Assembly: GCA_019235885.1 (NCBI GenBank)
Contig: JAFAKB010000026.1
Coordinates: forward strand, 1-64,000
DNA length: 64,000 bases
Reading direction: 5' to 3'
Source of the DNA: Candidatus Eremiobacterota bacterium
GTDB lineage: Bacteria > Vulcanimicrobiota > Vulcanimicrobiia > Vulcanimicrobiales > Vulcanimicrobiaceae
Under the pieces are notes generated by a model, which did no database searches, was not told the DNA's origin, and saw nothing but the letters and a program-made list of their open reading frames with translations. Each line of letters opens with the position of its first letter. Within the stretch, counting starts at the first letter, position 1. Shown here piece after piece: positions 21,105-34,686 of the stretch. The position numbers and the translations under genes are program-made.

Positions 21105-21245
21105 CGGTCGACGAGATCCTGCGCGAACCTCTAGAGCGACGTCTACATGAGCGCGCTCGATGCGAAAGCGTACGGCATCATCGACGCCGTCCTCGACGGC
21201 ACGCACCGCAACGGCGAGGCCGCCGCTCAGAGCGAGCGTTCTTGA
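21105..21245 (+). pseudogene. Decayed fragment of clpP 3' end
   Basis: The sequence matches the final ~45 codons of clpP at 17000-17137. It reads PVDEILRE, then after a frameshift continues as [20 protein letters not shown] and THRNGEAA before a TGA at 21243-21245 (true Clp[22 protein letters not shown]). It is fused to a manA fragment on its left. The catalytic part of ClpP is absent. Source may be the clpP of this window or another paralog. Confidence 0.78.
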
Positions 21246-21317
21246 CGCCGCACGCTTTGTTGATTACGATGAGCTACCAGGCGAAAGGCCTGGACTCCAA
21301 CGGAAAGGAGGAATCGC

Positions 21318-21536
21318 GTGGCTAGCGATGAGACCCGACCGGAGTTGGAGCTCGTCCGGCAGCTGTCCGAGAGGATACGGGCTCTGGCGACGCTCAACGC
21401 CGATAACGTCAGGCAGCTAGCCGAGAGGAGCGCTCTCTTGGCTAGGATGCACAACGAAGCCGTCACGCAATTTGCAAGGGCTTCCGAGCTCCTGCAAAGG
21501 TTCGCCGAAAGGCTAGACGCCCGCCGAGCGACCTAG
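21318..21536 (+). CDS. Small helical (coiled-coil) protein
   Basis: A 72-residue, wholly helical, charged protein with heptad-like leucines (LVRQLSERIRALATLNADNV and on to LLQRFAERLDARR). The GTG start is supported by an excellent ribosome-binding site (AAAGGAGGA, ending 5 bases upstream). A small hairpin (21277-21293, CCAGGC/GCCTGG) lies just before it. It is the first intact gene inside the island that continues with the interrupted tRNA and the RiPP operon, but nothing links it directly to either. No family recognised. The following 248 bases up to the tRNA hold no gene that I can support. Confidence 0.6.
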   Translation: MASDETRPELELVRQLSERIRALATLNADNVRQLAERSALLARMHNEAVTQFARASELLQRFAERLDARRAT

Positions 21537-21784
21537 CAGACGCCTCGTTGTCGCTCGCCCCGTTCCCAGCACGGTGTGGGCATTGGCGGCCGAACGGACT
21601 CGCTCGACCCCCCCCCAGCACTCGAGCGGACGAGGCCGTACAGTTGCGGTGGATGCGTCGCGGTTCTCCCCAGCAAGAACGGACCCGCCTCCGTACGCCG
21701 TCGTCCGGACCACCCCAGCATCCGGACGGCCAAAAAGCAGACCCACGTCGCGACGCATTTCGCGGCGCCAGTATCGCAATCCAT

Positions 21785-22070
21785 GCGCCCGTAGCTCAAT
21801 GGTAGAGAAGGGGACCTGATAGGTGGGGTTCGTCACTCGAGCAATTGCAGGTCGCGGACGAAGGTTCGACACGTGGTTCGCCGCTGGGGGCGTCGTGCGT
21901 GGTCGGTCTGCAGCCTTTCGATCCCCGGCAATCGGCGCACGACGGTGCGAACGCGGCCGGAACATGCTTCGAGGGGTTCGGGTGTGCGAGCTCGGAACGA
22001 CCGGCCGCCCTTTGAGAGCAACGGCCTCCTAAGCCGTTGGTTGCGGGTTCGAATCCCGTCGGGCGTACCA
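21785..22070 (+). tRNA. tRNA-Arg(CCU) gene interrupted in the D arm
   Basis: Exon-like part 1 (21785-21803, plus AGAG) gives the acceptor 5' strand GCGCCCG, the D-stem GCTC and D-loop AATGGTA. Part 2 (from 22015) gives the rest: D-stem GAGC, anticodon arm ACGGC-CTCCTAA-GCCGT with anticodon CCT, T arm GCGGG-TTCGAAT-CCCGT, acceptor CGGGCGT and ACCA. Joined across the AGAG repeat they form a canonical 75-nt tRNA-Arg(CCU) with encoded CCA. The 211 intervening bases are structured. Whether the RNA is spliced or the gene is dead cannot be decided from sequence; every paired position is intact, which argues against old decay. The RiPP precursor begins 28 bases after it. Confidence 0.75.
21804..22014 (+). 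other. 211-bp structured insertion within tRNA-Arg
   Basis: The insertion is bounded by a 4-bp direct repeat AGAG (21804-21807 and 22015-22018). Its ends are complementary (AAGGGG near the left, CCCTTT near the right). Internal perfect helices include TTCGTC/GACGAA, CGTCGTGCGT/GCGCACGACG (10 bp with one G-U) and GCGGCCGG/CCGGCCGC (8 bp), plus a UUCG-capped hairpin GTGG-TTCG-CCGC. If it is an intron, the boundaries T|A...G|A would satisfy the group I end rule, but I could not find a convincing P7/guanosine-binding core. A small non-autonomous mobile element with a 4-bp target duplication is the main alternative. No protein-coding frame in it is credible. Confidence 0.6.
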
Positions 22071-22097: not shown

Positions 22098-22256
22098 ATG
22101 TCCAAGAAGGCCGACGTGCGTGAAGACGCCGCCAAGAGCGCACCGGAAGGGACCACGTCGTACGTGAAGCCCGAGGTGAAAACGCTCGACCAGCGCGACG
22201 TCTTGCGCGCGGTCGCGAAAGGATCGAAGTTCCCGGCACGCGGCTTCGCCGGCTGA
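22098..22256 (+). CDS. Candidate RiPP precursor peptide
   Basis: A 52-residue peptide with its own strong ribosome-binding site (GGAGG, 6 bases before ATG). The first ~40 residues are charged and leader-like. They contain SYVKPEVKTLDQRDVLRA (residues 21-38), a YxxP motif with following hydrophobic positions, which is the type of segment bound by PqqD-like recognition domains. The C-terminal tail KGSKFPARGFAG is small, Gly/Phe-rich and cysteine-free, and is the likely core. A hairpin separates it from the modification genes, and the next gene encodes a PqqD-like protein. It has no similarity that I know beyond the YxxP pattern. The precursor role is inferred from size, motif and context. Confidence 0.72.
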   Translation: MSKKADVREDAAKSAPEGTTSYVKPEVKTLDQRDVLRAVAKGSKFPARGFAG

Positions 22257-22360: not shown

Positions 22361-22630
22361 GTGTACCCGCTGCGTTCCGAGGGCGTGCAGGCTCGCAAAG
22401 TCGGACCCGACACGCTGATCCTACACTCCCTGCTCAAGCAATACCACGTGCTGAACCACGTCGCGGGCCGTATCTGGGATTTGGCCGACGGAACGCGCGG
22501 CGCCGACGAGATCGGCTCGATCGTCGCCGCCGAGTTCGCGGTCGACGAAGCGACCGCGCGCGCCGACGTCGTCAGCACGCTCGAGGCGCTCGCCGCGCTG
22601 CGCATCGTCGAGCTGGAACCGGCGCGGTGA
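22361..22630 (+). CDS. PqqD-like RiPP recognition element protein
   Basis: An 89-residue protein of the PqqD family. It has the N-terminal strand region, the conserved LILHSLLKQYHVLNHVAGRIWDLADGTR segment and the three-helix bundle ending in LAALRIVEL. PqqD-like proteins bind leader peptides and present them to radical SAM enzymes. The GTG start follows GAGGAGA. Its end overlaps the next gene by GTGA, implying coupled translation with the SPASM radical SAM enzyme. The YxxP segment of the peptide encoded just upstream is the probable ligand (inference). Confidence 0.85.
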   Translation: MYPLRSEGVQARKVGPDTLILHSLLKQYHVLNHVAGRIWDLADGTRGADEIGSIVAAEFAVDEATARADVVSTLEALAALRIVELEPAR

Positions 22631-23991
22631 GCGCGCAGCGCTATTTCGCCGCGCCAGTCCGCTGGCTGCGCAGCGACGAGACGCTGCTGGCCGTCAGCCG
22701 CGTCCGCCCGCGCTGGGCGTCGGTGAACGAGACGGCCGCCGCGATCGTGCAGTACTGCGAGAGCGACGGCGGTCGTTCGGCCGACGAGATCCACGCCGAC
22801 TTCGAAGCGCGCTTCGGCCCCGTCGCGCGCGGCGACCTCGGCGATTGGCTCGCCACGCTGGTGCGCACGGGGCTGCTCGCGGGCGAACGGGATTTCGCCG
22901 CCCAGGCGCCGCTCGGCTTCGACGCCTATCGGGTCGAGCATCTGTACGTCGAGCTACTCGCGCGCTGCAATTTGCGGTGCGTGCACTGCTTCATGGGCGG
23001 CGCGCCCGAGCGCACCGAGCGGCTGAGCGCGAACGAAGTGTTCGCGCTGCTCGAAGAGTTCGCCGCGAGCGGCGGGCGCTACGTCACGCTCTCCGGCGGC
23101 GAGCCGCTGATCTATCCCGAGTTCGAGGAGGTCGCGCGGCGCGTCGTGCAGCTCGGGATGTACGGCACGGTGATCACCAACGGCGTGAGGCTGCGCGCGC
23201 CGCAGCTCGCGCTGCTCGACGAGCTCGGATTCAACGTCGCGATCAGCCTCGACGGGATCACGCCGGAGGTCAACGAGCGCATCCGCGGGCGCAGCTCGCT
23301 ACCGACGATGGCGACGATCGAGCGCGCGCTCGCGGTGCTCGGACCCGACCGCGTCGTCCTCTCGTTCACGCCGGTGAAAGCGAACCTCGGCGAGCTCGAG
23401 AAGCTCTTCAGCTTCGTCGAGGAGCGGGGGATCCGCCGCCTCAACCTCTCGATCTACGAAGAGGTCGGGCGCGCGTCCGAGTTCGCCGGCACGCTCGCGC
23501 TCGACGACGCCGACCGGCTTCGCTTGATGCGCACCGTCTACCACAAAGCCGTCGAATTGGCGGGGCGGGTCGAGATCGACCTGAACGACACGCGCGACAT
23601 CTTGAGCCAGTTCAGCGTCGACCGCACGTCGGCCGAGCTGCACCCGCTCTGGCGCGGCGTGCGCGTCACCTCGTCGGGCGACGTCTACCCGAGCACGTTC
23701 GGAGCGGTCGAGCGCTTCCACCTCGGCAACGTGCGTGAGGTGCCGTTTCGCACCGTCCTCGCCTCCGGCGTGCTGCGCGAGCTGTACGCGGCGCTGATCG
23801 ACCGCGACGCGAAGACGCCGAAGTGCCGCGAGTGCACGTGGCGGCAGATCTGCCGCGGCGGCAGCGTCGCGTCGGCATATTGCGCGACCGGCGAGCTCTA
23901 CTCGCCCGATCCCTACTGCGAAGCGTACCTCGACGTCTTTCCGAGCATCGCCGCGGCGCTCGCCGAGCTCGCGCCCGCGCCGGTCGCATGA
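22627..23991 (+). CDS. Radical SAM/SPASM peptide maturase with PqqD-like N-domain
   Basis: A 454-residue radical SAM enzyme. Residues 1-95 resemble a second PqqD-like winged-helix domain (NETAAAIVQYCESDGG). The SAM-cluster motif is C114xxxC118xxC121 (CNLRCVHC), followed by TLSGGEPL. The C-terminal SPASM domain carries C400, C403, C409, C419 and C431 (KCRECTWRQICRGG), enough for auxiliary iron-sulfur clusters. Such enzymes install C-C, C-S or C-O crosslinks or epimerise residues in ribosomal peptides. The core candidate has no Cys, so thioether formation is unlikely; a carbon-carbon or other side-chain modification is more plausible (inference). The gene overlaps its neighbours on both sides. 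Confidence 0.88.
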   Translation: MSAQRYFAAPVRWLRSDETLLAVSRVRPRWASVNETAAAIVQYCESDGGRSADEIHADFEARFGPVARGDLGDWLATLVRTGLLAGERDFAAQAPLGFDAYRVEHLYVELLARCNLRCVHCFMGGAPERTERLSANEVFALLEEFAASGGRYVTLSGGEPLIYPEFEEVARRVVQLGMYGTVITNGVRLRAPQLALLDELGFNVAISLDGITPEVNERIRGRSSLPTMATIERALAVLGPDRVVLSFTPVKANLGELEKLFSFVEERGIRRLNLSIYEEVGRASEFAGTLALDDADRLRLMRTVYHKAVELAGRVEIDLNDTRDILSQFSVDRTSAELHPLWRGVRVTSSGDVYPSTFGAVERFHLGNVREVPFRTVLASGVLRELYAALIDRDAKTPKCRECTWRQICRGGSVASAYCATGELYSPDPYCEAYLDVFPSIAAALAELAPAPVA

Positions 23992-24905
23992 AAGCCTGCT
24001 TCGCGATCCCGAACCGCGAAGCGTTGTTCGCCCAGTGCGCGCGGCGCGCACCGGTGCGCGCCGCGTTCGAGTTCTTCGGAGCGGCGGTCGAGGTGCGCGC
24101 GAGCTCGGAGGCGCTGATCGAGCGGCTGCGCCGCGTCTACCGCCACTTCAGCGTTGCGCGCGCGGTCCCGTCCGCGCGGTTGATCCTGCTGGAACCCGGC
24201 GCCGGTTTTGACGACTACGTGCTGCTGGCGGACTGGTTCGGCTGGGGCATGCGCATCGCGAACGACGCGCTGCTGCACTACTACGCCTCGAAGCTGCTGC
24301 GGCTGTGGGTCGCCGAGCGCAGCGATCCCGAGTACGCGACCTTGCACGCGGCCTCGCTGGCCGGGCCGTCGGGCGGCGGCGTCGTGCTGATCGGCGAGGC
24401 GGCGGCCGGGAAGACGACGCTGACGCTGCGGCTGCTCGAGCGCGGATTCCGCTACCTCTCCGACGACACGACGGTGATCCGGCGGCGCGATCTCACCTGC
24501 GTTCCGTTCCCGATGGCGTTCGTGCTGCGCGCTGGCGAGGGGCAGCCCGACATCGCGCTGCTCGACGAGCCGCGCTGGCTCCTCGAGCGCTGGGACGCGA
24601 GCGGCGCGGCGTTCGCGCCCACCGTGCTCTACTTTCTCGGCGACCATCCGGCGCTCGGGCCGGGCGGTTTTCGCCGCATCTCGCCGGTCGAGACGGCACT
24701 GCGCGTGCTGCGCAACCTCGTCATGCCGCTCGGCAGCGACGCAAGCGCGTACACGGCGGCGCCGCAGAACTTCGACTTCGCGTGCCGGCTCGCGCTCGCG
24801 GCCGACGGTACGGAGATGAGCTCCAACGACCTCGACCGCGCGCTCGACGCGCTGGTCGCCGACTACCGGCTGCGGTTCCCGATTCGATCGGAAGGAGCGG
24901 CATGA
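23988..24905 (+). CDS. HprK-like P-loop kinase/phosphatase-type protein
   Basis: A 305-residue protein with a C-terminal HPr-kinase-like fold: P-loop GEAAAGKT (residues 136-143), LRLLERGFRYLSDDTTVI with the SDD motif (158-160) typical of HprK-related proteins, and a preceding helical domain that lacks the HPr-kinase sensor region. HprK-like proteins occur in RiPP loci together with PqqD proteins; some phosphorylate the peptide (as in paeninodin lasso peptides), others have unknown roles. ATGA overlaps at both ends place it firmly in the operon. Its substrate here might be the precursor, whose core contains a serine. That is inference only. Confidence 0.8.
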   Translation: MKACFAIPNREALFAQCARRAPVRAAFEFFGAAVEVRASSEALIERLRRVYRHFSVARAVPSARLILLEPGAGFDDYVLLADWFGWGMRIANDALLHYYASKLLRLWVAERSDPEYATLHAASLAGPSGGGVVLIGEAAAGKTTLTLRLLERGFRYLSDDTTVIRRRDLTCVPFPMAFVLRAGEGQPDIALLDEPRWLLERWDASGAAFAPTVLYFLGDHPALGPGGFRRISPVETALRVLRNLVMPLGSDASAYTAAPQNFDFACRLALAADGTEMSSNDLDRALDALVADYRLRFPIRSEGAA

Positions 24906-26263
24906 GCGACATCACCTTGGTGAACACGGTCCTTCCGAGCGAGGTGAAGGTCCCACCGCAGGGGATTCTCTACCTCACTGCGGCGCTCGAAGCCGCTGGG
25001 TTCGACGTCGATATCCGCGACTATCAGCTCTGCGAGTTCGACGCGCCGTGGGAGCCGGCGACGCTCGCGCGCTTCGTCGAGGGTTCGGCACCCGTGATCG
25101 GTTTCAGCGCGATGAGTTATGCGCTCCCGCTGGTCATCGCCACGGCGCGGCTCGTCAAGGAGCGCGCGCCGGAGAAAATCATCGTCGCCGGCGGGATCGG
25201 ACCGTCCGGCGCGGGCGCGCCGCTGCTCGACTACTGCCCGGCGATCGACGTCATCGTCGACGGCGAAGGCGAGCGCACGATCGTCGAGCTGATGCAGGCG
25301 ATTCGCGACGGGCGCGAGCTCGGCTCGGTGGCGGGGATCATCCACCGCGCCGGCGGGCGCGCGCGCGCGAACGCGCCGCGTCCGCGCATCGCCTCGATGG
25401 TCGAGCTCGCGCCGCCGGCGTACCATCGCGTCGACTTCTCGCGATACCGGCTGGTCGACAGCCAGTTCGGGCGCGGCTGCCCGTTCCGGTGCACGTTTTG
25501 CGACATCGCGCCGTTCTGGAACCGGCTCAACACGCACCGCCCGATCGAGCACTACGCCGACGAGCTGGAGCGCTTGGTCAACGTGCACGGCGCGCGCGAC
25601 GTCTTCATCGTCGACGACACGTTCGTTCTCGCGCGCAAGTCGATCCTACAGTTCTGCGGCGAGATCGAGCGGCGCGGTATTGAGTTCGAGTGGGGCTGCT
25701 ACGCGCGCGTCGACCTGATGGACGAAGAGCTGATCGAGCGCATGGCCGCCGCGGGATGCCGCAAGGTGTTCTACGGCGTCGAGTCCGGCTCGGACGCGGT
25801 GCTCGGCGAGATCGTCAAGGACACGACCGTGCAGATGATCATCGACGCGGTGACGCGCTCGCTGCGCCACTTCTCGTTCGTCACCGCCTCGTTCATGTGG
25901 GGCTTCCCCGGCGAGTCGCTCGACGATCTGCGGCAGACCGTGGCGTTCTTGCTCTACCTCACCTCGCTCGGCGCCTCGCCGCAACTCAACCTGGTCCTAC
26001 CGTACTCGTACTCGACGCTCTACAAGCAGTACCGCGACCAGATCCGCTTCGATCCGCGGTACTCCTCGCAGCTCCAGTTCTACGAAGGCGACGACCGCGA
26101 GTGGCTGTGCGCGATGATCGCCGAGCGCCCGGATCTCTTCTCGGCGTTCTACCAGCTCCCCACTCAGGCGTTCGAGGAGAAATGGAGCTACCTCGAAGAG
26201 ATCGGGCTTTCGCCGCACGAGCTGCAGTACGCGTACGATCACCCGGTGCCGGCGGCGCGATGA
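24902..26263 (+). CDS. B12-binding-domain radical SAM enzyme
   Basis: A 453-residue radical SAM protein of the B12-binding class. The N-terminal ~150 residues form the cobalamin-binding Rossmann domain (PPQGILYLTAALEAAGFDV ... VIVDGEGERTIVELM). The SAM-cluster motif is C193xxxC197xxC200 (CPFRCTFC), and the barrel includes VFYGVESGSDAVL and MWGFPGES. Such enzymes typically methylate unactivated carbons or rearrange substrates. The B12-domain signature DxHxxG is not obvious, as in many family members that still bind cobalamin base-off. ATGA overlaps link it to the HprK-like gene and to the synthetase-like gene. Peptide methylation or rearrangement is a reasonable guess. Confidence 0.88.
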   Translation: MSDITLVNTVLPSEVKVPPQGILYLTAALEAAGFDVDIRDYQLCEFDAPWEPATLARFVEGSAPVIGFSAMSYALPLVIATARLVKERAPEKIIVAGGIGPSGAGAPLLDYCPAIDVIVDGEGERTIVELMQAIRDGRELGSVAGIIHRAGGRARANAPRPRIASMVELAPPAYHRVDFSRYRLVDSQFGRGCPFRCTFCDIAPFWNRLNTHRPIEHYADELERLVNVHGARDVFIVDDTFVLARKSILQFCGEIERRGIEFEWGCYARVDLMDEELIERMAAAGCRKVFYGVESGSDAVLGEIVKDTTVQMIIDAVTRSLRHFSFVTASFMWGFPGESLDDLRQTVAFLLYLTSLGASPQLNLVLPYSYSTLYKQYRDQIRFDPRYSSQLQFYEGDDREWLCAMIAERPDLFSAFYQLPTQAFEEKWSYLEEIGLSPHELQYAYDHPVPAAR

Positions 26264-28413
26264 GGTACGACGCCGCGGCGGTCGAGGCGAAGTGGCAGGC
26301 GCGGTGGGCGGAGGAGCGCTGCTTTGCAGCCGACGCCGTGCCGGACGGCGAGCCGTTCTTCAACTTCGACGGCGGACCGTTTCCGAACGGTCCGCTGCAC
26401 ATGGGGCACGTGCGCACGTTCACGCTCGGCGACGTCATGGCGCGCTACCAGCGGATGCGCGGGCGGCGCGTCCTCTACTGTTTCGAGTTCGACGCGTTCG
26501 GGCTCCCCAACGAGCTCGCGGCGGAGGCGCTGGGCGTCACGCCGGAAGAGCTGACGCAAGCGAACATCCTGCGGATGCAGCGGCAAATGGTCCGCTTGGG
26601 TCTGAGCTACGACTGGGAACACGTCCCCGCGACGTGCGAGCCGCGCTATTACCGCTGGACGCAATGGCTGTTCCTTGCGCTGCGAGAGCGCGGCCTCGTC
26701 TACCGCGCCGCGGCGGACCTCAACTGGTGCCCCAGCTGCAGCACGACGCTCGCGCACATGCAGGTCGAGGACGGCCGGTGCTGGCGCTGCGAGAGCGCCG
26801 TCGAGACGCGCACGCTCACCCAGTGGTACGTCGCGATCTCGCGCTACTCGGCGATCCTTGCCGAAGGCCTCGACGAGCTCAGCGGGTTCAGCGACCGCGT
26901 CCGCAACGTGCTGCGCGGATTTCTCGGCGCGACGAGCGGGATCGAGGTCGAGCTCGCGCCGGCGGACGCTTCGGGCCTTGCGCTCAGAGCGTTCGTCGCG
27001 GACGAGCTTGCGAACGCCGCACCGGCGTACGCCGCCGTCGCTCCGGGACACCCCGTGCTCGCGGCGCTGCTTCCGGACGCGAGCGGCGAGCTCGCCGAAT
27101 GGTCGCGGCCGGCCGGCCGCGCGCGCCGGCGAACCGGGGGGCGCGCGGACGACGCGCTCGACGGATTCGACACGGGCCTGCGCGTCCGGTTGCCGGATCG
27201 CACGACGGTGATTCCGGTCTTCGTCGCGCGTTACGCCGAGCAGGGCTTCGCGACCGGAATCGAACTCGGCGTCCCGGCGAAGAGTCCGCGCGACCGCGCG
27301 TTCGCCGAACGGCACGGGCTCGCGTGGCGCGGCGGCGATGCGGCGCCGCTTCGCGGCCGGCGCGCGACGCACTATCACGTTCACGACTGGCTCGTCTCGC
27401 GCCAGCGCGCATGGGGAACGCCGATACCGATCGTGCACTGCACGGCGTGCGGCGAGGTGCCGGTCCCGGAGGATCGGCTTCCGGTGCGCGTTCCATCGCG
27501 TCCGCCGAACGGCGAGCCCGGCGGTCTTGCGGCGGTGCCGGGATTCGCCGAGACGGTGTGCCCGCGTTGCGATGCGCCCGCGCGGCGCGAGACCGATACG
27601 CTGGATTGCTACTTCGACGTCGTCTGGTGTTTTCTCGGCTGCGCCGCGCGGCTCGACGACGGCTTCCGCTTCTCGGCAGCGGACTTCGCGCCGTGGATGC
27701 CGGTCGACTGGTTTCACAACGGCCTGGACTCGTTCTTCTACATGCACCTCTACCGTTTCATCGGCCGGGTGCTCTACGAGATGGGAATCCTGGCGGAGCC
27801 CGAGCCGATTCGCCGCTACGCCGGGCACGACGCGGTGCTGCTCGCTGGCCGCAAAATGAGCAAGCACCACGGCAACACCGTCGCGCCGGACGAGATCGTC
27901 GAACGCGTCGGCGCCGACGTCTTGCGCTTGCAGATCCTCGGCGCGGCGAATCCGCTCAAGAGCGTCGAATGGTCGGCGTCGGGCGTGGAGCGCGCGCAGC
28001 GTTTCCTCGCGGATGCGTGGTCGCTCGTCTGCCGCGTCGCGGAAGACGTGCGTGACGGCGACGGCCCGTTGCGCGCTGCCGGCGACGAGCGCCGCCTACC
28101 GCTCGAGGACGCGGTCGATCAAAGCGTTCGCCGCATCACCGCATTCGTGGAGCGTTACCAGTACGCCGGCTGCATCCGCGAGTTGCAGAGCCTCTTGCGG
28201 CGCTTGCGCGCCGGGCTCGAGCGGCTCGAGCGGCGGCCCGACGACGAGCGGCTGCGCGCTGCGCTGGTCGCGAGCGCACGCCGGTTCGTGCAGGTGCTCG
28301 CACCGTTCGCACCGCACGCGGCCGAAGAGATGTGGGAACGCCTCGGCGGCGATGGTCTGGTCGCGGTCGCGCCGTGGCCCGGCGTCCTCCCCGCGTTCGG
28401 CGCGGCAGCCTGA
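26260..28413 (+). CDS. Leucyl-tRNA-synthetase-like protein in RiPP operon
   Basis: A 717-residue class Ia aminoacyl-tRNA synthetase homolog, closest in layout to LeuRS. It keeps HMGH (residues 47-50), KMSKH (532-536), WDAFGLP-like FEFDAFGLPNELAAEA, and zinc-type Cys pairs (157/160, 174/177, 394/397, 434/437). The CP1 insertion is present but eroded: the TTRPDT editing motif of LeuRS is replaced by unrelated sequence. The protein is shorter than true LeuRS (about 860) because the C-terminal portion is reduced. Start overlaps the radical SAM stop (ATGA). The context makes a housekeeping role unlikely. It may activate an amino acid, or transfer one from tRNA, for peptide tailoring. Confidence 0.85.
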   Translation: MRYDAAAVEAKWQARWAEERCFAADAVPDGEPFFNFDGGPFPNGPLHMGHVRTFTLGDVMARYQRMRGRRVLYCFEFDAFGLPNELAAEALGVTPEELTQANILRMQRQMVRLGLSYDWEHVPATCEPRYYRWTQWLFLALRERGLVYRAAADLNWCPSCSTTLAHMQVEDGRCWRCESAVETRTLTQWYVAISRYSAILAEGLDELSGFSDRVRNVLRGFLGATSGIEVELAPADASGLALRAFVADELANAAPAYAAVAPGHPVLAALLPDASGELAEWSRPAGRARRRTGGRADDALDGFDTGLRVRLPDRTTVIPVFVARYAEQGFATGIELGVPAKSPRDRAFAERHGLAWRGGDAAPLRGRRATHYHVHDWLVSRQRAWGTPIPIVHCTACGEVPVPEDRLPVRVPSRPPNGEPGGLAAVPGFAETVCPRCDAPARRETDTLDCYFDVVWCFLGCAARLDDGFRFSAADFAPWMPVDWFHNGLDSFFYMHLYRFIGRVLYEMGILAEPEPIRRYAGHDAVLLAGRKMSKHHGNTVAPDEIVERVGADVLRLQILGAANPLKSVEWSASGVERAQRFLADAWSLVCRVAEDVRDGDGPLRAAGDERRLPLEDAVDQSVRRITAFVERYQYAGCIRELQSLLRRLRAGLERLERRPDDERLRAALVASARRFVQVLAPFAPHAAEEMWERLGGDGLVAVAPWPGVLPAFGAAA

Positions 28414-31555: not shown

Positions 31556-32711
31556 ACGTCCGGCCTTTCCATGCGCCGCCCGCGCCGTGCAGGTGGCGCC
31601 GGGCCGAGTCGATCGTCATCCCCGTGTAGAGCAGCGCGGCAAGCGGAAGCGCGAGCGCGTTCATCGGCCGCATGCCGTAGAGCCGCAGCGTCGGCGCGTA
31701 CGCGAGCGCCATCGTTCCCCACGCGATGATTCCAGGAAACGCCACGTCGGCGCGGCGGCGGCGCGCGCCGGCGAACGTCGCCGCGACCGGGACGTAGGAG
31801 AGCAGCAGCATCCCCGCGACCGTGCCCGCGAGCACCAGCGGTGAATAGCGCAGCTGCGTGTACGCGGTGCGCGCGACCATCGACCAAATCTCCTGGAGCG
31901 AGCGGTACGGGCGCACGCTGCGCGAGCGCGTCGTCAACTCGAGCCGCAGCCCGCCGCCCTGCGCTTTCACCGCGGTCGCGAGGGCGCAGTCGTCGATCAG
32001 CTCGTCTTTGATGCGCTCCAGTCCGCCGATTCCGCGCAGCGCTTCGTCGGCGATGAGCACGCAGCCGCCGGCCGCGCCCGCGGTCGCGCGGCGATCGTCG
32101 TTCACCCATGCGAACGGGTACAGCATCCGAAAGAAAAAGACGAACGCCGGAATCAGCAGACGCTCCCACGGCGTGACGGAGTGCAGCGCGACCATCTGCG
32201 AGACGAGCGCGCGCCGTTCGCCGAGCGCGGTTGCGACGAGTCTGGCGAGCGTGTCGGGATCGTGCTCCACGTCGGCGTCGGTGAACCACCAGAACACGGG
32301 ACGCGCGCCGGCTGCGCGCGCCGCTTCGACGCCGCTCGCGAGCGCCCACACCTTGCCGGTCCAACCGTCGGGAGTCGGCGTGCCGTCGACCATGCTCGCG
32401 GGGTGCTGCGCCGCCGATGCGGCGATCGTCGCGCGCGCGACGGCGCCGGTGCCGTCGTCGCTGCGGTCGTCGACCAGCGTGATCGCGAACCGGCCGGGAT
32501 AGCGTTGCGCGAGCAGCGAGGAGAGCGTTTGCGCGACGACGTCGGCCTCGTTTCGCGCCGGCACGACGGCGTGCACGTCCGGCGCCGGGTCGCCGGGCGC
32601 CGGATCGCGGAGGCCGTCGGCACGCGAATCCCAAAACCGTCCTCGAGCGACGACCAGCCCCACCCACGCCGCCGCCGAGATCCACGCCGCGACCTTCAAC
32701 GCCTTGACCAT
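31536..32711 (-). CDS. hpnB: Hopanoid-associated glycosyltransferase HpnB
   Basis: A 391-residue family 2 glycosyltransferase with membrane anchors. An N-terminal helix precedes the GT-A domain: VHAVVPARNEADVVAQTLSSLL, VDDRSDDGTGAVAR, the DxD-type WWFTDADVEHD, and KDELIDDCAL (QxxRW-region equivalent). Three to four hydrophobic helices follow (about residues 275-370). This layout matches hopene-associated HpnB proteins. It would modify extended hopanoids or a related lipid; the sugar donor is unknown. Its start codon overlaps the start region of shc, transcribed in the opposite direction, and its end overlaps hpnG. Confidence 0.82.
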   Translation of the reverse strand: MVKALKVAAWISAAAWVGLVVARGRFWDSRADGLRDPAPGDPAPDVHAVVPARNEADVVAQTLSSLLAQRYPGRFAITLVDDRSDDGTGAVARATIAASAAQHPASMVDGTPTPDGWTGKVWALASGVEAARAAGARPVFWWFTDADVEHDPDTLARLVATALGERRALVSQMVALHSVTPWERLLIPAFVFFFRMLYPFAWVNDDRRATAGAAGGCVLIADEALRGIGGLERIKDELIDDCALATAVKAQGGGLRLELTTRSRSVRPYRSLQEIWSMVARTAYTQLRYSPLVLAGTVAGMLLLSYVPVAATFAGARRRRADVAFPGIIAWGTMALAYAPTLRLYGMRPMNALALPLAALLYTGMTIDSARRHLHGAGGAWKGRTFRPERR

Positions 32712-34686
32712 TCACGCAACGCCTTCGAATCGCGAGTCCGACCGCCCCGCCGCGCCGGCGCTGGACGACGCGATCGCGCGCGCGGTCGACGCGCTCTTTC
32801 AGCTCCAGCATCCGGACGGGTACTGGTGGGCCGAGCTGCAGTCGAACGTCTCGATCACGGCGGAGGTCGTGCTGCTGCACCACGTGTGGGGACGCTTCGA
32901 AAAGGTGCCGCGTGCGGCGGCGGAGCGGTACTTTCGCGGCGAGCAGCGCGAGCACGGCGGGTGGGAGCTCGCTTTCGGCGACGGCGGCGAGCTGAGCGTC
33001 ACCGTCGAGGCGTACATGGCCCTGCGCCTGCTCGGCGTTGCGGCCGACGATCCGGCCTTGCGGCGCGCGCGTGAGTTCGTGCTCGCGCGCGGCGGAATCA
33101 CGCGCACGCGCATCTTCACCAAGATGCACCTCGCGCTGATCGGCGCGTACGAGTGGGCGGGGCTGCCCGCGCTGCCGCCGTGGCTGATGGTCCTTCCCGA
33201 GCGCGGTCCGTTCTCGATCTACGAGCTTTCGAGCTGGGCGCGCGGCAGCACCGTGCCGCTGATCCTGCTCTTCGACCGCAAGCCCGTCTACGCGCCGGTG
33301 CTGCAGCTCGACGAGCTGTACGCCGAAGGCCGTGCGAACGCGCAGTTTGCGCTTCCAGCCGCGAACGGCGCCACCGAGCGCTTCTTCAACGGCGTCGACC
33401 GCGTGCTGAAATGGAGCGAGCGAACAGGACTCGTGCCGTTTCGCGCGCGCGGCATCGAGCTGGCCGAGCAGTGGACGGTCGAGCGGCAAGAGCACACCGG
33501 CGACTGGGGCGGGATCATCCCCGCGATGCTCAACGCGATGCTGGCGCTGCGCGCGATCGGCTACGACGCCAGCGATCCCGTCGTCGTGCGCGGCTGGTCG
33601 GCGATCGACGCCTTCACGATCACCGCGAACGGCGCGTACCGCGTGCAGCCGTGCATCTCGCCGGTCTGGGACACCGGCTTGGCGGTGCGCGCGCTGACCG
33701 ACGCCGGCGTGCCGCGCGACGATCCGCGGCTGGTCAGCGCCGCGACGTGGCTGCTCGAGAAGCAGATCGTCGCGCGCTACGGCGACTGGTCGGTGAAGAA
33801 CCGCACCGGAAAACCGGGCGGCTGGGCGTTCGAGTTCGAGAACTCCTGGTATCCCGACGTCGACGACACCGCGGTCGTCGCGATGGCGCTCGCCGCGGTC
33901 GAGCATCCGCAGCCCGAGCGCGTGCGCGGCGCGATCGCGCGCGCGGAGGAGTGGGTCGCGACGATGCAGTGCAGGACCGGCGGCTGGGCCGCCTTCGACG
34001 TCGACAACGACCAGGACTGGCTCAACCGCATCCCCTACGGCGACCTGCGGGCGATGATCGATCCGAGCACCGCCGACGTCACCGCGCGCGTGCTCGAGAT
34101 GCTCGCGCGCTGCGAGCTGCACGGCTTCGGCCGCGCGCGCGTCGAGCGCGGTCTGCGCTTTTTGCTGAACGAGCAGGAAGCCGACGGCGCCTGGTTCGGC
34201 CGCTGGGGCGTGAACTACGTGTACGGCACGAGCGGCGCGCTCGCCGCGTTGTGCGCCCTTCGACAAGCTCGGGATGACGTGGAGCCGGCTCAAGACGACG
34301 CGACGCTGCGGGCGATCGTGCGCGGCGCGGTGTGGCTGAAGAGCGTGCAGCAAGCGAACGGCGGTTGGGGCGAAACGACCGACAGCTATCGCGATCCTGC
34401 GCTGCGCGGGAGCGGTCCGCCGACGGCGAGTCAAACGGCGTGGGCGCTGATCGGCCTGATCGCGAGCGCGCAGCGTTTGCCGCAGATCGCGGAGGCGTTC
34501 GTGCCGTCGATCGAGCGGGGCGTCGAGTACCTGCTGCGCGCGCAGCGTGCCGACGGCAATTGGGATGAGCCGGAGTTCACCGGCACCGGCTTCCCGCAGC
34601 ACTTCTACTTGAACTACCACGCCTACCGGCTGTACTTTCCGCTCGCCGCGCTCGGGCGCTACGCGGCGTTCGCAGCCGCCCGTTAA
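32704..34686 (+). CDS. shc: Squalene-hopene cyclase
   Basis: A 660-residue class II triterpene cyclase that converts squalene to hopene/hopanol at the membrane. The protonating DxDD motif is DVDD (residues 385-388, in YPDVDDTA). Multiple QW-type repeats are visible (QxxDGxW near 34-41, GGWAFEFENSW, QCRTGGWAAFD, QQANGGWGE, QRADGNWDE). Length is normal. The TTG start overlaps the divergent hpnB start by 8 bases; no other start is available before the conserved N-terminal helix. A copy of the dispersed REP-like element lies in frame within the variable loop near residue 520. Confidence 0.93.
   Translation: MTIHATPSNRESDRPAAPALDDAIARAVDALFQLQHPDGYWWAELQSNVSITAEVVLLHHVWGRFEKVPRAAAERYFRGEQREHGGWELAFGDGGELSVTVEAYMALRLLGVAADDPALRRAREFVLARGGITRTRIFTKMHLALIGAYEWAGLPALPPWLMVLPERGPFSIYELSSWARGSTVPLILLFDRKPVYAPVLQLDELYAEGRANAQFALPAANGATERFFNGVDRVLKWSERTGLVPFRARGIELAEQWTVERQEHTGDWGGIIPAMLNAMLALRAIGYDASDPVVVRGWSAIDAFTITANGAYRVQPCISPVWDTGLAVRALTDAGVPRDDPRLVSAATWLLEKQIVARYGDWSVKNRTGKPGGWAFEFENSWYPDVDDTAVVAMALAAVEHPQPERVRGAIARAEEWVATMQCRTGGWAAFDVDNDQDWLNRIPYGDLRAMIDPSTADVTARVLEMLARCELHGFGRARVERGLRFLLNEQEADGAWFGRWGVNYVYGTSGALAALCALRQARDDVEPAQDDATLRAIVRGAVWLKSVQQANGGWGETTDSYRDPALRGSGPPTASQTAWALIGLIASAQRLPQIAEAFVPSIERGVEYLLRAQRADGNWDEPEFTGTGFPQHFYLNYHAYRLYFPLAALGRYAAFAAAR
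34257..34278 (-). repeat. REP-like element inside shc coding sequence
   Basis: CCTTCGACAAGCTCGGGATGAC is a copy of the dispersed element in reverse orientation. It is translated in the cyclase frame as part of ALRQARDDV, a loop between QW-repeat helices, and does not interrupt the gene. Confidence 0.6.

Follow-up and report, generated by a model that had tools for sequence, protein, structure and literature searches.

A mobile RiPP cassette encoding a remodelled LeuRS-like enzyme, an interrupted tRNA(CCU) and an AGG-rich open reading frame

We describe here a compact gene cassette in which a leucyl-tRNA synthetase-like (LeuRS-like) enzyme with a remodelled amino acid pocket is encoded together with RiPP genes, an interrupted tRNA gene and a small AGG-rich open reading frame. 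One copy lies in the window, the 64,000-nucleotide stretch of a Candidatus Eremiobacterota genome that was analysed, and the same cassette is present at two further loci, both alphaproteobacterial, in Roseibium marinum (L009) and in a Rhodobacter-labelled MAG (L010). Gene order is identical at the three loci (AGG-rich ORF, CCCAG repeats, tRNA(CCU), precursor, PqqD, SPASM radical-SAM, HPrK-like kinase, B12 radical-SAM and LeuRS-like genes), and the flanking genes differ. The reading that we favor, with a probability of roughly 0.4, is that the synthetase and the tRNA are a dedicated pair, the enzyme loading the cassette tRNA and the tRNA decoding AGG in the cassette's own ORF. No published description of such a cassette was found in the literature searched, the coverage of which is incomplete.

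The LeuRS-like gene (26260–28413; this and all the other cassette features of the window are on the forward strand) encodes a 717-residue protein, and its ATG overlaps the TGA of the B12 radical-SAM gene just upstream. It shares the fold of bacterial LeuRS, is 35–37% identical to housekeeping LeuRS, and has the HMGH and KMSKH motifs that a first-pass annotation had reported, but its 477.5 bits with the leuS equivalog model TIGR00396 fall short of the curated cut-off of 548.4. Alignment also bears out the reported disappearance of the TTRPDT editing motif, which is replaced by FVADEL in the window, FVAADR in L009 and FVPDGQ in L010; the VPAHD..D motif is degraded, and the Pfam LeuRS editing domain scores 43.5 bits in the window enzyme, 53.7 in L009 and not at all in L010, compared with 220.9 in the housekeeping enzyme. 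The shortening described for the C-terminal part is explicit in that the protein stops directly after the anticodon-binding domain and the LeuRS C-terminal domain is absent. The absence of any other LeuRS from the genome had been set beforehand as the result that would make this the housekeeping enzyme; a full-length LeuRS is encoded on a separate contig (G000:C25:85159–87624) and scores 1014.8 bits, over the cut-off, such that 26260–28413 is a paralog and its being the housekeeping enzyme is ruled out. Ordinary LeuRS genes over the cut-off are also present in the L009 and L010 genomes, and thus all three genomes have a housekeeping LeuRS.

The amino acid pocket is extensively altered. By alignment to E. 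coli LeuRS (with pocket positions given as the chain numbering less 20) the three cassette enzymes have in common the changes L38F, M40G, L41G, Y43F, S45N, Y499C, Y500F, Y527F and H533S, whereas D80 is retained. Position 537 is not His in any of the three alignments, and the four positions taken as the test of a leucine pocket (M40, Y499, Y527 and H537) are therefore occupied by G, C, F and a residue other than His in every cassette enzyme. M40, L41, Y499, Y527 and H537 are the sites at which E. coli LeuRS has been altered so that it accepts other amino acids, with M40G in several of the variants (PMC6610526). As shared changes fall at these engineered sites, the LeuRS-like enzyme is likely to have a changed amino acid specificity. 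In having these pocket positions changed (40, 41, 499, 527 and 537) the cassette enzymes resemble the orthogonal E. coli variants for non-canonical amino acids, although the latter are engineered and work with an amber tRNA-Leu, whereas the cassette enzyme is natural and is accompanied by a CCU tRNA; the cassette thus provides a naturally remodelled LeuRS pocket for study.

The genes between the tRNA and the synthetase encode a 52-residue RiPP precursor peptide (22098–22256, identified by alignment of the three loci) that ends in KGSKFPARGFAG, a PqqD-like RRE protein (22361–22630; PF05402, 4e-13), a radical SAM/SPASM enzyme with an N-terminal PqqD-like domain (22627–23991; PF04055, PF13186 and PF05402; 55–60% identity in the L009 and L010 loci), an HPr-kinase-like protein with a conserved GEAAAGKT Walker A motif (23988–24905; TIGR04352 and PF07475, below cut-off), and a B12-binding radical SAM enzyme (24902–26263; PF02310 and PF04055; 66–67% identity in the other two loci). 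The closest families to this last enzyme are ApyD and BchE, neither of whose cut-offs it reaches; the ApyD match is 6e-54. A precursor with a leader, an RRE and radical-SAM enzymes are encoded together, as in a radical-SAM RiPP cluster, and the LeuRS-like gene is translationally coupled to the radical-SAM, PqqD and kinase genes, in agreement with the coupling to peptide-modifying enzymes proposed in the first-pass annotation. The precursor C-terminus, KGSKFPARGF[A/S]G, is nearly invariant across hosts of different phyla, which suggests a single fixed product and not a diversifying toxin. No protease, exporter or PEARL is encoded among the conserved cassette genes, and a scan of the operon proteins found no LanB-like PEARL ligase domain. 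Such a gene content would be compatible with a product that stays in the cell and serves translation.

A predicted tRNA gene interrupted in its D-loop is located downstream of the AGG-rich ORF and ahead of the precursor gene, on the same strand in all three loci. Its 5' part (21785–21804; acceptor strand, 5' D-stem and D-loop to position 21) has the sequence GCGCCCGTAGCTCAATGG, identical in the three loci, and is followed by an insert of about 211 nt (21805–22015; 198 nt in L009 and 213 nt in L010) and a 3' part (22016–22070) comprising the 3' D-stem, an anticodon arm with CCU, the T arm, the 3' acceptor strand, A73 and an encoded CCA. The Rfam tRNA model matches 21997–22067 with 36.7 bits. 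In the alignment the first 18 and last 31 nucleotides of the tRNA are identical in the three loci and the inserts have diverged, and the anticodon is CCU, which reads AGG, in each. Anticodon-stem pair 27–43 is A-U in the window and in L010 and C-G in L009, a paired change, and pair 31–39 is C-G, A-C and U-G in the window, L009 and L010 respectively. In predicted folding, enforcing the cloverleaf costs 3.5, 0.4 and 0.6 kcal/mol (window, L009 and L010), and the window insert folds no better than its shuffles (z 0.07). Bacterial tRNA genes may also contain group I introns, of a size (about 200 nt) similar to that of the insert, but the cassette insert is in the D-loop and not the anticodon loop, and in the window and L009 stretches no group I covariance-model match was obtained even with E values up to 5 allowed, such that a group I intron is rejected. 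A20 is a main identity element for ArgRS in E. coli, and in genomes G000 and G150 the host tRNA-Arg(CCU) genes carry GGATA in the D-loop and have other acceptor ends. The cassette tRNA instead has GG-Y-A at this place, with A20 replaced by C or U, and ends in GUACCA. Its G1-U72/A73 combination is also seen in the Roseibium tRNA-Leu(UAG), as well as in other host tRNAs, among them tRNA-Glu and tRNA-His, and is thus not specific to tRNA-Leu.

The AGG-rich ORF (21318–21536) encodes a small helical protein of 72 residues and is preceded by a sigma-70-like promoter, TTGACG-17-TACGAT (21242–21270), found by consensus scan (one site versus 0.1 expected), with no terminator-like site between the promoter and 22400. 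All of its AGG triplets are in frame, and AGG makes up seven of the 72 codons versus 10 of 7,293 in the background (p 1e-11). The homologues, 33–37% identical to the window protein, have eight AGG in 75 codons at L009:2519–2746 (p 4e-8; locus background 23 of 3,535) and six in 76 at L010:2656–2886 (p 3e-6; background 19 of 3,634), and in each of the three ORFs AGG is the most enriched codon. The proteins are predicted to be amphipathic, and helical-wheel analysis finds the AGG positions to be compatible with Arg in an amphipathic helix. When the ORFs are aligned, AGG exchanges with CGN at two positions and once with Lys (columns 54, 61 and 69), and elsewhere AGG encodes conserved Arg, as in GRKMSK of the L010 LeuRS-like enzyme, which rules out a global reassignment of AGG. 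A search for relatives of the ORF in the rest of the three genomes gave only weak hits (best E 0.003). All three ORFs end in a TAG stop, and the window ORF uses further codons that are rare in its neighbors (GCT, CTA and ATA), as DNA of recent acquisition would be expected to.

Behind the ORF are four CCCAGC repeats (21565–21570, 21614–21619, 21669–21674 and 21714–21719), to which a GCUGGG within the tRNA insert (21883–21888) is complementary. The window has four CCCAG motifs versus 0.70 expected, L009 has three and L010 seven, and shuffled sequences contained as many in 5, 14 and 0 of 2,000 trials for the window, L009 and L010 respectively. A single CTGGG occurs in every insert, its position varying only from +95 to +103, and variants of repeat and insert pair best within their own locus (UCCCCAGC with GCUGGGGA in L009, and UUCCCAGC with GCUGGGAA in L010). 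However, of 500 trials in which the inserts were shuffled and the repeats kept fixed, 61, 59 and 39 gave a 7-mer count at least as high as the observed one (about 8–12% per locus), and tethering of the insert to the repeats is thus only suggestive.

Placement of the enzymes in a LeuRS tree, which the first-pass annotation had called for, unites the three cassette proteins in a single, long-branched clade (100/100) that contains none of the other LeuRS sampled. The L009 and L010 proteins are 52–54% identical to that of the window, and the window enzyme groups with L010 (97/95), which fits horizontal transfer; the cassette is clearly mobile between phyla. The other LeuRS relatives retrieved (L011–L026) are without the remaining cassette genes, and none of those included in the tree belongs to the cassette clade. 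No further members were found in 149 genomes of the window's phylum or in samples of 397, 394, 385 and 398 genomes (about 1,570) around the two alphaproteobacteria, and the cassette is thus rare; the viral contigs, plasmids and phage records searched also contained none. Several LeuRS genes of other kinds came to light. A third LeuRS-like paralog (L043:8034–10364, in G150:C7) has ATQVAT at the editing motif and no C-terminal domain; the other cassette genes are absent, and its neighbors, judged by eye from translations, are apparent thioesterase, aminotransferase, dioxygenase and adenylation-type genes, surroundings that look like a natural-product cluster. A different paralog, in which the motif reads HLGH and the N-terminus is extended (L042:8838–11279, in G124:C330), is found in a genome of the window's genus that has no cassette. 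Several of the phage-collection records among hits H21–H39, assigned by label to Listeria, Staphylococcus, Enterococcus and Acinetobacter phages, carry full-length LeuRS genes of the ordinary kind, which are probably bacterial DNA. A squalene-hopene cyclase gene (32704–34686; TIGR01507, 839.7 bits) is situated a few kilobases downstream of the cassette in the window.

The arrangement suggests a series of steps. The LeuRS-like enzyme would activate an amino acid in its remodelled, probably non-leucine pocket and without editing; it would charge the cassette tRNA, set apart from the host tRNA-Arg by the G1-U72/A73 end and the missing A20; and the tRNA would read the AGG codons packed into the small helical ORF. 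We consider the odds of each of these three steps to be about even. More doubtful is the proposal that GCUGGG of the insert pairs with the CCCAGC repeats and holds the tRNA near its message, in which case AGG elsewhere would still be read as Arg by the host tRNA. To a similar degree we doubt that the two radical-SAM enzymes, together with the kinase, build the residue on the precursor, a route that may be compared with that of pyrrolysine, itself the product of a dedicated cassette. Taken to its full extent, the proposal is of a natural code-expansion cassette, in which a RiPP-derived non-canonical amino acid, a LeuRS-derived synthetase and a tethered tRNA(CCU) would recode AGG in the target ORF only. 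The cassette does have its own tRNA gene, interrupted and predicted at three loci, and a target gene enriched in the matching codon, but we regard this fuller proposal as unlikely, and charging, amino acid identity and recoding are all inferred from sequence. Against even the simpler dedicated pair stand the existence of only three cassette members and the prospect that a tRNA of ~270–290 nt may not be functional.

As for the amino acid charged, the foremost alternative to a RiPP-derived residue is Arg. An odd but ordinary tRNA-Arg(CCU), charged by the host ArgRS, could supply or regulate translation of an AGG-rich, and hence Arg-rich, protein, with the LeuRS-like enzyme serving the RiPP pathway in some other way. 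The tRNA body resembles alphaproteobacterial tRNA-Arg(CCU), and the interchange of AGG with CGN at two conserved ORF positions, together with AGG encoding Arg elsewhere, makes plain Arg decoding a serious rival; nonetheless the replacement of A20 by C or U and the G1-U72/A73 end are both unlike host tRNA-Arg, and the altered LeuRS in the same cassette is left unexplained, and we consider this account unlikely. It is also conceivable that the tRNA is merely an integration site, or was broken by an insertion, and is unrelated to cassette function, given that tRNA genes are common integration sites and the cassette moves between phyla. This is rather improbable in that strand, place and insert position are the same and the tRNA ends near-identical in three loci despite diverged inserts, and the paired change (A27-U43 versus C27-G43) preserves the anticodon stem.

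Other alternatives concern the enzyme. The first-pass annotation had proposed that a LeuRS paralog, encoded within a radical-SAM RiPP operon, takes part in aminoacyl-tRNA-dependent tailoring. The placement in the operon is confirmed, and the arrangement is kept in three genomes; PEARL-like tailoring is not favored, as no PEARL or LanB-like ligase was found in the operon. A wider version, in which the enzyme makes an aminoacyl-tRNA or aminoacyl-adenylate for tailoring of the precursor (PEARL-like or MshC-like) and not for decoding, draws on the coupling to peptide-modifying enzymes and on the tRNA-dependent peptide tailoring known from the PEARL papers. PEARL/pearlin pathways likewise combine tRNA-dependent chemistry with a carrier peptide of about 50 residues and an RRE-type leader, but the cassette has radical-SAM enzymes and a dedicated synthetase and tRNA in place of a PEARL ligase, no other aminoacyl-transferase was found in it, and the AGG-rich ORF and the CCU anticodon would go unexplained. 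We consider this improbable, and the interrupted tRNA(CCU) and AGG-rich ORF, which the earlier annotation had missed, make translation the likelier destination of the charged tRNA. For a LeuRS conferring self-resistance to the cluster's own product there is a precedent in AgnB2, which, like other resistance synthetases, is a second LeuRS near biosynthetic genes. However, AgnB2 retains the Leu-AMP pocket and the editing and C-terminal domains (PMC5059758), whereas here the enzyme has lost the three features that a replacement LeuRS would need, the Leu pocket, the editing site and the C-terminal domain; with neither the Leu-AMP pocket nor the tRNA-Leu-binding domains kept, we reject this explanation as having very little chance of being correct.

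Among known systems a close analogy is the pyrrolysine cassette (pylT/pylS/pylBCD), which, like the cassette described here, is a small, transferable unit that encodes a tRNA and a synthetase of its own along with biosynthetic enzymes, radical SAM enzymes among them. The differences are considerable, in that here the synthetase is a class I, LeuRS-derived enzyme, the codon is the sense codon AGG, the possible source of the residue is a RiPP precursor, the tRNA has a giant D-loop insert, and the target ORF is inside the cassette. The pyrrolysine system proper is ruled out by the class I fold and CCU anticodon, as it uses a class II PylRS and the amber codon. Roseibium marinum DSM 17023 is a culture-collection strain and a possible test organism. 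Even if AGG proves to encode Arg, a RiPP cassette with a LeuRS-like enzyme, a tRNA with a D-loop arm of ~200 nt and an AGG-rich ORF has no counterpart in the literature searched. Should the pair decode AGG with a new residue, it would represent a further naturally encoded amino acid, with a RiPP source and message-specific recoding of a sense codon.
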